A stretch of 51,665 bases of DNA from Alistipes sp. (GTDB lineage Bacteria; Bacteroidota; Bacteroidia; Bacteroidales; Rikenellaceae). Positions 2,560 to 41,509 of this stretch are shown here, piece by piece (the stretch's first letter is position 1; every line of letters starts with the position of its first letter). The notes beneath the pieces were generated by a model. The model was not told the origin of the DNA. It searched no databases and saw only the letters and a program-made list of their open reading frames with translations. The position numbers and the translations under genes were made by a program. The DNA lies in NCBI GenBank assembly GCA_017465605.1, contig JAFTVW010000002.1, forward strand, positions 1 through 51,665, written 5' to 3'.

Positions 2560-2590
2560 TTGCGTTTCCAAAATATGCTCTGTAACTTTG
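2560..2590 (+). promoter_or_regulatory. Promoter for the + strand cassette
   Basis: TTG (2560-2562), 20-base spacer, TAACTTTG (2583-2590). It points toward the genes starting at 2843. The transcript would have a leader of about 240 nt that is more GC-rich than its surroundings. The leader contains a short hairpin (CTATCTCC 2805-2812 with GGGATAG 2820-2826) just before the first ATG. Confidence 0.6.
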
Positions 2591-2842
2591 TAGGAGACAT
2601 ATTGAAATTTACGGAAGCGTAAGTTTATTCTCGGATAGTGAACGTAGGAAATTCATTTGAACATAGAGAATAAGCGTCCGCATCTCCCGTCGTATCTACA
2701 CGGTATGGCGCGGGGTTGTTGCTTATTTGAATGTTCGGGCACTCCTACGGCCTACTATCCTCAGATAAGACTTCAGTCCTGCGCTTTCTTTTTGCTACTA
2801 ACCGCTATCTCCAGGCTGAGGGATAGGAAATACACTATCACG

Positions 2843-3121
2843 ATGGGAAATACAGAATTTATAATTTACGAGATAGCTGATTATTCCAAACAATGTATCT
2901 CAAGACGTGCTATAATTAAAAAGAAACTAAATTCGAATACGTTTCTACAAGTATTATTGTATCCCAATATAGCAGAGGGCAGCGAAAATGAAGTAACGGT
3001 ATATTTATGTAATGGTGATTTTGTAACAACTCAGGAAGAGCCATTTAGTTGCTATATGCCTGAAGGTAAATCATTGCAAGATCTTGAGTTTGGTGATATG
3101 CTTACTGCAGTTCTATTTTGA
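2843..3121 (+). CDS. Hypothetical small protein, first gene of the cassette
   Basis: 92 residues from the ATG at 2843 (starts MGNTEFIIYEIADYSKQ). The same frame stays open upstream to a TTG at 2657, but those 62 extra residues are Cys/Arg/Leu-rich with no structure-like pattern and are more likely an untranslated leader. The short form reads as a mostly beta protein (EFIIYEI, FLQVLLYP, EVTVYLCNGD). No family recognised. It is followed after 30 bases by the WG-repeat gene in the same direction. It could be an immunity or accessory protein of the cassette; that is inference from position only. Confidence 0.5.
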   Translation: MGNTEFIIYEIADYSKQCISRRAIIKKKLNSNTFLQVLLYPNIAEGSENEVTVYLCNGDFVTTQEEPFSCYMPEGKSLQDLEFGDMLTAVLF

Positions 3122-12847: not shown

Positions 12848-13495
12848 TTAATTATTTAATTCAATTTTCAAGAAACAATAATTACATATAGAGTCTTTAT
12901 TAGACTTGTATATATCCCAATGTAACTCATAATTATTACTAATTTTCACACTCCTATCCTTTGTGTATGAGTATTTTGAGGCAGTTATGGTATAACCATC
13001 ACCTATACAAAATTTATAATTATTACAAATCGTATAATTAGGATTATCAGTAAAAAGTATTTCGTAACATACACTATTATCTTTTAGACTGTATCTCTCC
13101 AGATTCTCTAAATCACAATAGAGAAAGAATTTATTGTCAGTAACTGCCTCGTTGATAGATTTCTTGAAGTATTTTAACTCGATGAATGCCGTACAACTCT
13201 CTCGTGTGATTTGGTCATATAGTTTGACTTTAATGTCACAACGAGCCTTGCCATTGGAACTTTTTTGTGTGGATTCAATCTCTTCCAATGATTCCAACTC
13301 AATCGAAAACCGCTCCGATGAAGAAAATTCGTATAGGATACCGATCTGTTTGATTATTACACTTAAGTGTAATTGCATAGAAGCCTCGTTGTGAATACTT
13401 ATATCTTGACCGACTATTTTCTCACATAACAGCCTATAAGATATATTCACAACCTCTCGAAGTCGTTCTTCAAATGTTGGTATGTATCGTTCCAT
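12848..13495 (-). CDS. Putative PD-(D/E)XK nuclease-like protein
   Basis: 215 residues. Asp87 in RCDIKVKLYD followed by FIELKYFKK (Glu106, Lys108) gives the D-(x)n-ExK arrangement of PD-(D/E)XK phosphodiesterases, preceded by a helical N-terminus with a Glu-rich stretch. A C-terminal beta region follows. No DNA-recognition domain is seen, so the substrate is unknown. Its start lies about 40 nt downstream of the structured RNA at 13537-13800, on the same strand. Low GC suggests transfer. Confidence 0.5.
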   Translation of the reverse strand: MERYIPTFEERLREVVNISYRLLCEKIVGQDISIHNEASMQLHLSVIIKQIGILYEFSSSERFSIELESLEEIESTQKSSNGKARCDIKVKLYDQITRESCTAFIELKYFKKSINEAVTDNKFFLYCDLENLERYSLKDNSVCYEILFTDNPNYTICNNYKFCIGDGYTITASKYSYTKDRSVKISNNYELHWDIYKSNKDSICNYCFLKIELNN

Positions 13496-13536
13496 CTACT
13501 GGTAACATACCATTCAACTCCTTATGGTAGGTTAGT

Positions 13537-13800
13537 ATAAAAACAAGAAAGTGTGGAGTTGATTTTCGTTTATCTAATCGAAGGTTGTGGAAAGACCCAA
13601 GCAAAAATAAACGACACGATACCCCACACTCGAATAGATATGGAGCATCGAAGTACAATAAATATGCACTTCGTCCACAGTCTAAACAAGAAATGAGTGT
13701 TGTTCGTTGTCCTTTTGCTTTTGAAAACTTCCACATTTTCGATTAAGGACTATGAAAACACTTTCATCAAATATGTCAGCCTTGTACTTTTAAGCACTCA
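13537..13800 (-). ncRNA. Structured RNA, copy 1 of a two-copy family
   Basis: The start is expected near 13800 from a TTG-N21-TACCTTTG promoter (13838-13807). A 5' hairpin (13797-13784) precedes a long multi-stem fold. Outer arms GAAAGTGT/ACACTTTC (13765-13758 with 13554-13547) are followed by a U-rich tail. Next is a stem of TTAATCGAA (13746-13738) with TTCGATTAG (13582-13574), then TGTGGAA with TTCCACA, then AAGCAAAA with TTTTGCTT and AACGA with TCGTT. A central hairpin lies between a conserved single-stranded TTCTTGTTT and GTGTGGGG. Copy 2 at 40836-41093 keeps these pairs with compensating base changes, so RNA structure is under selection. Could be a trans-acting sRNA or a leader of the downstream nuclease-like gene. 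It may match a known Bacteroidales RNA motif, which I could not confirm. Confidence 0.7.
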
Positions 13801-13806
13801 GCGTAA

Positions 13807-13838
13807 CAAAGGTAGAAAATAATTTCCATTTTGAACAA
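13807..13838 (-). promoter_or_regulatory. Promoter of structured RNA copy 1
   Basis: Minus strand: TTG (13838-13836), 21-base spacer, TACCTTTG (13814-13807). Spacer is one base longer than in most promoters of this window. Confidence 0.6.
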
Positions 13839-14014
13839 CACTCAATATATTTTTTGACATATTTTCTACCGCAAAGTTCGGATAAACAAACAAATAACAC
13901 AATAGAATCTACTATTGAAGATATAATTTATTGTTTATAATTTAGGGAAATAAGTAAAACTCTCAAATATAGTTTTTGGCGATGGGATACTTGCTATACC
14001 AGCAAGATACTTAC

Positions 14015-40797: not shown

Positions 40798-40829
40798 TTT
40801 GGGCGTTTATGAAAGTTTTTATATCTTTG
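40798..40829 (+). promoter_or_regulatory. Promoter of structured RNA copy 2
   Basis: TTTG (40798-40801), 20 bases, TATCTTTG (40822-40829): a textbook Bacteroidota promoter, opposite in direction to ftsY and the ribosomal protein genes. Confidence 0.85.
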
Positions 40830-40835
40830 CAATCT

Positions 40836-41093
40836 AGCCACGAAATTTCGGCGTACATATTTTAGAAAGTGTTTTCGCACTCTCCCTAACAGAAAATGTG
40901 GAAGTTTTCAAAAAAACGGAGGTGAACGAACAACACTCACTTCTTGTTTAGACATATGAGGTTTTCGCATTTAATCTGCAATACACCCCATAATCTATTC
41001 AGGTGTGGGGCATTGCATCGTTTATTCCGTTTAGGTCCTTCCACAACCTTCTGTTAGATAGACGAAATCAACTCCACACTTTCTTTATTTTTA
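40836..41093 (+). ncRNA. Structured RNA, copy 2 of a two-copy family
   Basis: The 5' hairpin (40837-40852) is followed by outer arms GAAAGTGT (40865-40872) and ACACTTTC (41076-41083). Inner stems are CTAACAGAA (40886-40894) with TTCTGTTAG (41049-41057), TGTGGAAG with CTTCCACA (41038-41045), and AAACGG with CCGTTT plus AACGA with TCGTT. A central hairpin between TAGA and TCTA is flanked by TTCTTGTTT and GTGTGGGG, both shared with copy 1. Several stem columns differ from copy 1 on both sides at once. The U-rich tail ends 48 bases before the ATG at 41141. It could be an independent sRNA with terminator or a leader controlling the secreted protein gene. Confidence 0.72.
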
Positions 41094-41140
41094 AGCCACA
41101 AGTCGCATCGGAGTTGTACGACACCACAAAAACCTAACCT

Positions 41141-41509
41141 ATGCGATACATTTTCTTCCTATTCTTTTTGGCAGTTGTCACTGCCGACGTATTTGGCGTA
41201 ATCTACGCAACCGACCAAAGCCAGCAACCCAAAAACAACGGAATCACACTAACTCGCGCGGCAAGTTCAGCGCAGTCGTACTCCTACTTGGTTTTTACCA
41301 ATAACAACAAGTACGATGTTACGATTACATACATCATCGATGGTTGCGCACCCACTAAAATCTCGGTCAAGGCAGGCGAGAGCAAAAAGACCACATCGGC
41401 CTACAAGAGCTCTTCCAACGTCGAGACCGTAGTTGAACCGCTTTACAATAAAATCGAACTAAAAACCAAGCCCACGAAGAAGAAGTCCTCAAAGACCAAC
41501 CTCAAATAA
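41141..41509 (+). CDS. Small exported hypothetical protein
   Basis: 122 residues. Signal peptide about 1-23 (FFLFFLAVVTADVFG). The mature part has a beta-rich middle (YSYLVFTNNNKYDVTITYIIDG) with one Cys, and a Lys/Thr/Ser-rich basic tail. No family recognised. It is the only gene in the + unit driven by the copy-2 RNA promoter. Bounded by a bidirectional terminator. Confidence 0.6.
   Translation: MRYIFFLFFLAVVTADVFGVIYATDQSQQPKNNGITLTRAASSAQSYSYLVFTNNNKYDVTITYIIDGCAPTKISVKAGESKKTTSAYKSSSNVETVVEPLYNKIELKTKPTKKKSSKTNLK

Follow-up and report, generated by a model that had tools for sequence, protein, structure and literature searches.

Introduction

GEMM, the c-di-GMP riboswitch class, is found at many places in a genome, ahead of genes that are unrelated. 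Four-strand switches, amino-acid attenuators among them, are built on two mutually exclusive pairings. The leader family described here resembles GEMM riboswitches in its place in the 5′ leader, its many copies per genome, the diversity of the genes behind it and its alternative pairing, but differs from them in its length (approximately 280–300 nt in the window's genus), its own conserved promoter, its pre-start hairpin and pseudoknot, and its lack of an Rfam match. With amino-acid attenuators, it shares four strands and two exclusive pairings, whereas it is set apart from them by a pseudoknot that involves a pre-start hairpin.

Bacteroidales-1, Bacteroides-1, Bacteroid-trp and 6S-flavo RNAs, which appear in the available excerpts of Weinberg et al. 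(2010, PMC2864571), are likewise structured RNAs of the Bacteroidota, but they are other families: their models, including that of Bacteroidales-1 (RF01693), matched neither the window copies nor the leaders of 15 distant loci of the present family. FopS/GibS, another family, consists of Bacteroides small RNAs and, according to excerpts of PMC11697453, is also a multicopy Bacteroidota RNA family with a link to surface proteins. FopS members are described in those excerpts as sRNAs whose 5′ stretch is unpaired and which carry a terminator and act on other mRNAs, whereas the leader family lies at a narrow distance before a gene; as far as the excerpts go, the two differ by description, structure and position. 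Fremin and Bhatt (2021, PMC8040213) list 3161 candidates of 27–219 bp in a supplement, and a fragment of the leader family may be among them. No published description of the family was recognised in the portions of the literature searched, and the Bacteroidota terms searched for were absent from PMC11109978 and PMC8632094.

Judged by comparison of sequences, the family is strongly selected, widespread and leader-positioned. It is a structured RNA family found in sampled genomes across its order and phylum, with up to 32 copies per genome and, where tested, without a match in the Rfam reference library. The Bacteroidota are a major group of gut and environmental bacteria, in which this leader precedes many unrelated genes.

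Three copies on an Alistipes contig

The window, i.e., the whole stretch of DNA that was analysed, comprises 51,665 nt of an Alistipes sp. contig (JAFTVW010000002.1, assembly GCA_017465605.1). An earlier note made from its letters had described a two-copy structured RNA with compensatory changes, the first copy near 13.6 kb. Both stretches were present with the quoted stems: the first stem reads UUAAUCGAA/UUCGAUUAG in copy 1 and CUAACAGAA/UUCUGUUAG in copy 2, the second AAGCAA/UUGCUU and AAACGG/CCGUUU, respectively, and UUCUUGUUU and GUGUGGGG are kept in both. The two copies are thus real, but their number was an underestimate, as the window contains three and the genome 12. That first observation included neither the promoter and the 5′ leader position, nor the pseudoknot and the second pairing scheme, nor the number of copies and their spread across the phylum. 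The features of the three copies are given below; none of the three genes had a Pfam match.

13807..13814, minus strand: −7 promoter motif of copy 1, Bacteroidota-type, TACCTTTG (TAnnTTTG), read from the sequence
13496..13800, minus strand: 5′ leader RNA of copy 1, from the putative transcription start to the base preceding the start codon (predicted ends)
13507–13798, minus strand: match of copy 1 to model R1
13758..13765, minus strand: strand a of copy 1, the 5′ strand of basal stem P1 (GAAAGUGU), helix 3
13740..13747, minus strand: 5′ strand of the first stem quoted above, copy 1 (CUUAAUCG), helix 5
13622..13629, minus strand: strand c of copy 1 (GUGUGGGG), complementary to apical b′ and basal d′
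13574..13582, minus strand: 3′ strand of the first stem quoted above, copy 1 (UUCGAUUAG)
13555..13561, minus strand: pseudoknot 5′ strand of copy 1 (CAACUCC), bulged beside P1, helix 17
13547..13554, minus strand: strand d′ of copy 1, the 3′ strand of P1 (ACACUUUC), followed by a U-rich run
13515..13521, minus strand: pseudoknot 3′ strand of copy 1 (GGAGUUG), in the pre-start hairpin
12848..13495, minus strand: gene behind copy 1, 215 aa
40822..40829, plus strand: −7 promoter motif of copy 2, TATCTTTG, read from the sequence
40835..41140, plus strand: 5′ leader RNA of copy 2 (R1 match 40826–41124, R2 match 40864–41087; predicted ends)
41141..41509, plus strand: gene behind copy 2, 122 aa, with a hydrophobic N-terminus
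2583..2590, plus strand: −7 promoter motif of copy 3, TAACTTTG
2612..2792, plus strand: copy 3, a diverged third member of the family (R2, E 1.8e-7)
2843..3121, plus strand: gene behind copy 3, 92 aa

At Rfam 15 gathering cut-offs, the window yielded only one tRNA, and ARAGORN likewise found one tRNA. Searched at E-values up to 10, copies 1 and 2 gave only chance-level hits (E 0.4–2). Bacteroidales-1, which had been named as a possibility, was not among the matches to either copy, and the earlier view that the RNA could not be assigned to a known family therefore held. The 15 distant loci, searched at E-values up to 5, yielded one tRNA and chance-level matches, none of them at the leader.

Distribution of the leader

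A blastn search with copy 1 gave six matches at five places in its own genome. The search with copy 2 matched 30 of 61 genomes, of which 29 were among the 37 of the genus (own genome included) and one was of another family. In the genus, 22 of the 23 sampled genomes carried the leader in 1–32 copies. In searches of more than 40 genomes, copy counts are to be read as at least the number given, because the number of scored candidates was capped. In the order, model R1 matched 46 of 247 genomes, from 40 of 174 genera; in the class it matched nine of 198, and in the phylum seven of 198. Model R2, built from 30 distant members that were themselves R1 matches, had hits in 104 of 247 genomes sampled from the order, representing 83 of 174 genera, as well as in 63 of 247 from the class and 40 of 296 from the phylum; ten of the phylum hits fell outside the class (E 1e-9 to 2e-6). 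Model E-values are rough; at E ≤ 0.001 per genome, approximately 0.25 false genomes per 247 would be expected if the calibration holds. The sampled sets overlap between searches, and each tally includes the window's own genome. The layout is conserved in distant members, in which the apical part is often shorter.

Scanning named genomes with a sequence pattern gave at least 117 stretches. Among the matches listed, approximately 63 titles named Alistipes and 24 Rikenellaceae (depositors' names); other titles listed included Tidjanibacter, Muribaculaceae, Bacteroidaceae, Cryptobacteroides, Phocaeicola and a MAG named Sphingobacterium. Carriers with named strain genomes exist, namely Alistipes sp. 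An66 (locus L133) and Chryseobacterium shandongense G0207, the latter on plasmid NZ_CP033916.1 (R2, E 1.2e-19). On this plasmid, a 120-aa ORF that is absent from the incomplete gene table starts 41 nt past the match.

Carriage of the leaders by phages or plasmids was rejected on the basis of plasmid, phage and viral-contig searches. Copy 2 had no match in plasmids or phages, one distant member had none in phages and one match in plasmids, a second had none in plasmids, and one exact pattern had no match among viral contigs.

Position between a promoter and a gene

The motif TAnnTTTG, the −7 promoter motif of the Bacteroidota, occurred no more than 80 nt ahead of P1 in 71 of the 72 genus copies versus 7% of random 90-nt windows. 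It was also present in 75 of 80 near matches (many of which are the same loci as in genus alignment A2 in another collection, and hence not independent), 17 of 28 far matches and 59 of 88 distant members. An ORF lay downstream in 70 of the 72 genus copies, and 43 of these 70 ORFs start 45–54 nt after P1. The same was true of 77 of the 80 near matches, all 28 far matches and 82 of the 88 distant members; the other six distant members had no suitable ORF. A start codon 9–20 nt past the model end was seen in 47 of 77 near matches and in 20 of 28 far ones. These counts cover 80 of 81 near matches (L166 was left out) and 28 of 29 far ones. Given the motif frequency and the narrow start-codon distances, the element usually lies between a promoter and a gene. 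By its position, it thus has the place in the 5′ leader of a gene that is characteristic of riboswitches.

Several smaller features accompany this layout. In the three window copies, an unpaired ACAUAU (e.g., at 2,598–2,603) follows the 5′ hairpin and precedes P1, and ACATA was found within approximately 15 nt upstream of P1 in 43 of the 88 distant members. Over the −33 region, an imperfect dyad, GAACAATGTCCC-N-GAGTGTTGTTCGTTTG, is common to many genus copies; in the window, it lies within 13,815–13,870, upstream of copy 1 on the minus strand, and homologous flanks of other copies carry it too. The right half of the dyad corresponds to a leader segment in inverse complement, and the dyad may be an operator.

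In many copies, an upstream AGTGTTGTTCGTT is an inverted copy of the leader segment AACGAACAGCACT, an arrangement that looked like an invertible promoter. Promoter inversion was rejected as the main reading: the within-copy match (10.66 of 16) was barely higher than the between-copy match (10.11), and both were above shuffled sequence (8.41).

RNA strand and covariation

The genus set consisted of 71 full copies with flanks, with all pairs below 90% identity (mean 62.5%). The minus strand near 13.6 kb, which the earlier note had proposed as the transcribed one, proved the better choice. Across the 71 copies, 11.9% of paired cells on the RNA strand were G–U and 2.4% C–A/A–C, versus 8.0% and 5.7% in the consensus structure predicted for the opposite strand. 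Single-sequence folds of the RNA strand gave z = −5.6 for copy 1 (100 shuffles) and −6.0 for copy 2 (200 shuffles), and no shuffle folded as well. As the opposite strand folds well too (z = −3.4 and −5.8, respectively), the z-score alone cannot pick the strand. The opposite strand as RNA was rejected on the G–U counts, the promoter and the position of the gene.

In alignment A2 (70 of the 71 copies; L030 was dropped for its poor 3′ end), 91.6% of cells were paired, versus 83.4% in shuffled alignments and 37.7–45.8% in slid registers. Changes on both sides of a pair were seen in 506 cells, versus 160.4 when shuffled. For the whole structure with the pseudoknot, none of 500 shuffles reached any of five measures and all slid registers were exceeded; relatedness is kept in the slid registers and is not kept in the shuffles. 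Columns 103/300, 104/299 and 105/298 each had at least four standard pair types and 96–100% pairing, and in helix 5, to which the first quoted stem belongs, both sides changed in eight of 11 pairs.

The distant set, from which L103 was dropped, was reduced to 88 of 99 rows in alignment A7 by removal of identical or short rows. Between A4 and A5, seven of 41 rows were taken out (L001, L077, L079, L080, L099, L233, and L238), and between A5 and A6 four of 34 (L089, L090, L095, and L098). In the 88 members, the pairs of the central helix were 97–100% paired, one of them as CG in 31, UA in 23, AU in 19 and GC in 15. Compensatory change is therefore strong both in the 70 genus-level copies and in the 88 distant members, and the selection on RNA structure claimed from two copies is borne out by the kind of larger alignment that had been called for.

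By eye, a local hairpin (GAAAU-N-AUUUC) in the 5′ strand of the central region of distant members also seems to covary. It would sequester the CUGG strand and is possibly a co-transcriptional intermediate.

Possible mutually exclusive pairings

Among the 88 distinct distant members, the consensus of strand c, in the apical part, is GCGUGGG, and that of strand d′, at the base, is CCCACGC. Pairing of these and the two partner strands was compared with shuffles that ignore relatedness. The apical pairing c:b′ was formed in 674 of 704 cells (647.1 shuffled) and P1 (a:d′) in 572 of 616 (511.1 shuffled); the four core pairs of P1 were in slight excess (334 versus 330.9), reached by seven of 2000 shuffles. 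The seven pairs of the alternative c:d′ were formed in 613 of 616 cells, versus 594.7 ± 1.65 in shuffles, none of 300 of which reached this value. With an eighth pair added, the count was 637 of 704 (613.6 shuffled; none of 2000 reached it). In other registers, c:d′ was paired in at most 420 of 528 cells, with no excess over the corresponding shuffles. The pairing a:b′ was weaker yet above shuffles (388 of 440 versus 376.8 ± 2.3).

Examples of c/d′ include ACGUGGG/CCCACGU, GUGUGGA/UCCACAC, GGGUGGG/UCCACCC and GCGCGAG/CUCGCGU. In L296, L266 and L099, c:d′ was matched while P1 was mismatched; L298 showed the reverse. Within the genus, c:d′ does not covary because c and d′ are nearly invariant there. 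The combination of a conserved structure with mutually exclusive pairing, as in riboswitches, is thus present at the level of covariation and complementarity. The c:d′ helix takes up part of the pseudoknot strand described below, and the two states would therefore also set the pseudoknot. When c:d′ was forced in folds without pseudoknots, the median cost was 13.9 kcal/mol (range 0–23, 44 sequences).

An argument for cis pairing from copies that share a genome fell when self and crossed matches were counted. For eight copies of the own genome, c and d′ matched at 6.88 of 7 positions within a copy and 6.50 of 7 between copies; 33 of the 56 crossed pairs matched fully, and L306, one of these copies, has one mismatch with itself. 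In the own genome, the self match is thus only slightly better than the crossed one.

Pseudoknot, U-rich run and start codon

A CANCUCC bulge just before the last strand of P1 is complementary to GGAGNUG in a hairpin beyond the U-run. In A2, 91.2% of the cells of this pseudoknot (helix 17) were paired, and four of its seven pairs changed on both sides. Conservation was poor in the stem of the hairpin that carries GGAGNUG, at 62.1% of cells for the register examined. In the 88 distant members, the mean score was 13.9 for self and 11.3 for crossed pairs, and none of 500 shuffles reached the former. The helix scored below 14 in 38 of the 88, and 22% of crossed pairs reached 14. Comparison across genomes thus establishes the pseudoknot at the sequence level, as it does the leader position, the stems and the alternative complementarity.

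In a subgroup whose pattern matched eight of 395 genomes, the ATG lies approximately 20–25 nt after the U-run and a hairpin abuts it. This pre-start hairpin repeats 6–7 letters of the central helix of its own leader (CUNNNAA) in eight of ten members, i.e., six of the seven first rows and both new loci, with L249 and L245 as the misses. L245 does not contain the search motif and was counted as an additional miss, L255 was left out as not belonging to the subgroup, and L322 resembles L263. As a control, 9% of crossed row pairs shared at least six letters. The hairpin carries UGUGGC directly before the ATG in L244, L246, L247, L249, L252, L263, L265, L318 and L322, and its loop mostly repeats the locus-specific strand of the central helix.

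We consider it fairly probable that this is a family of cis-acting, bistable 5′ leaders that control the next gene, probably at translation initiation. Translation is favoured as the output because the pseudoknot beyond the U-run is under selection and the pre-start hairpin repeats the central helix. Each leader would be transcribed from its own Bacteroidota-type promoter and would end just before the start codon of one gene. In the rod state, a long rod would be closed by P1 (a:d′) and contain the apical hairpin b′:c; in most members, a pseudoknot would connect the strand beside d′ with the loop of a hairpin ending approximately 9–20 nt before the start codon. In the second state, c:d′ and a:b′ would form within the same molecule, opening both P1 and the pseudoknot. 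We infer a signal (small molecule, protein or other RNA) that shifts the balance between the states, and the pre-start hairpin and pseudoknot would relay this balance to the start of translation on the gene that follows.

The 10 nt after d′ contain a mean of 7.7 U, versus 3.1 in the background, so that the stem followed by a U-run that is expected of an attenuator is present and termination there is possible. It is conceivable, though rather unlikely, that the leader is a transcription attenuator in which c:d′ and the U-rich run form an intrinsic terminator and the rod is the read-through state. The c:d′ helix is G+C-rich and ends at the U-run, within a four-strand layout typical of attenuators. 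The 3′ strand of the pseudoknot, however, lies beyond the run and covaries, which a pure terminator would not need. The run is also where P1 ends, c:d′ encloses a loop of 49–68 nt, and a pattern scan of copy 1 placed a short-loop terminator-like site at the apical hairpin and none at the U-run.

A constitutive leader that stabilises the 5′ end or enhances translation without switching would account for the strong structure, the 5′ hairpin at the predicted transcript end, the narrow start-codon distance and the genes without a shared pathway. We regard it as unlikely because it leaves unexplained both the alternative complementarity c:d′ and the pre-start hairpin with its copy of a central-helix strand.

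Genes behind the leaders and their possible exchange

In the genus, 29 of the 70 downstream ORFs fit a crude lipobox pattern. For the distant members, 69 of the 82 downstream ORFs (at least 60 aa, own genome left out) were scanned with Pfam and PADLOC. A total of 51 Pfam families were matched, including LRR, DNA methylase, CsgG and the C-terminal secretion sorting domain, and the Pfam scan of these 69 proteins showed no metabolic theme. A gene family shared behind the leaders was rejected, as no Pfam family was matched by more than three of the 69 proteins. In PADLOC, up to four of the distant downstream proteins matched methyltransferase models. Among the eight scanned proteins of the subgroup with the pre-start hairpin, five matched Pfam models of DNA methylase or type I restriction (L244, L246, L252, L263, and L265), L247 had one weak Pfam match, and L245 and L249 had none. 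The first part of the 215-aa product in the window was 56% identical over 50 residues to a protein behind leader L077 in another family.

Copy pairs were also compared by their flanks, leaving out pairs of L024, a locus that begins at the end of a contig. In five pairs, the matched upstream flank was 230 nt or longer; all five, including window copy 2 versus L009, share at most 5 nt downstream. Of three pairs with 152–189 nt upstream, two share nothing downstream and the third, L061/L074, does. Downstream homology was found in 35 pairs, 34 of them without upstream homology; some of the 35 are paralogues from a single lipoprotein family, so that the pairs are not independent. The clean case is L315/L316: at one shared locus, flanked by a gene matching uracil-5-methyltransferase and a gene with an alpha-amylase domain, leader and upstream flank are 85% identical; a 125-aa ORF in one species stands in the place of a 443-aa ORF in the other. 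Recombination between leader copies is sufficient to explain this exchange of genes.

Conserved leaders before different genes, as in the five pairs and in L315/L316, would also be expected of a DNA-level element, i.e., a folded single strand or recombination junction for gene exchange, as attC sites are. We find this highly improbable: the promoter, the narrow ATG distance and the pre-start pairings would be required of a leader, no second element was seen at the 3′ end of the exchanged gene in the one pair L315/L316, and homologous recombination between leader copies would give the same pattern. A trans-acting small RNA, or pairing between copies, is very unlikely as well. In its favour, the U-run after P1 could end a free RNA, and c and d′ of different copies in one genome match well; against it, near and far members keep a narrow start-codon distance and the pre-start hairpin repeats the helix letters of its own leader.

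For the cis-acting bistable leader, we tentatively suggest a wider role, which we hold with less than even confidence. A phylum-wide class of signal-responsive switches may serve as a portable control cassette that places unrelated, exchangeable accessory genes (surface lipoproteins, secreted proteins, restriction-modification genes, and small peptides) under one RNA-sensed signal, with the leader also acting as the exchange junction. If the leader is a true switch, the surface and accessory genes behind it would form a large regulon in gut bacteria, and the signal of the switch would be directly testable.

L313 and L314 are approximately 92–94% identical upstream over some 8.5 kb, and their homology stops approximately 18 nt past the element; because L314 reaches its contig end 1.2 kb later, this break may be an assembly error. 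A recurring ORF of approximately 40–50 aa (e.g., MKNSEQRDYLTPEVEVNEICVEQGF...) was observed behind leaders L042, L051, L063, L072, L161, L305 and others, and in several cases it precedes a larger ORF.
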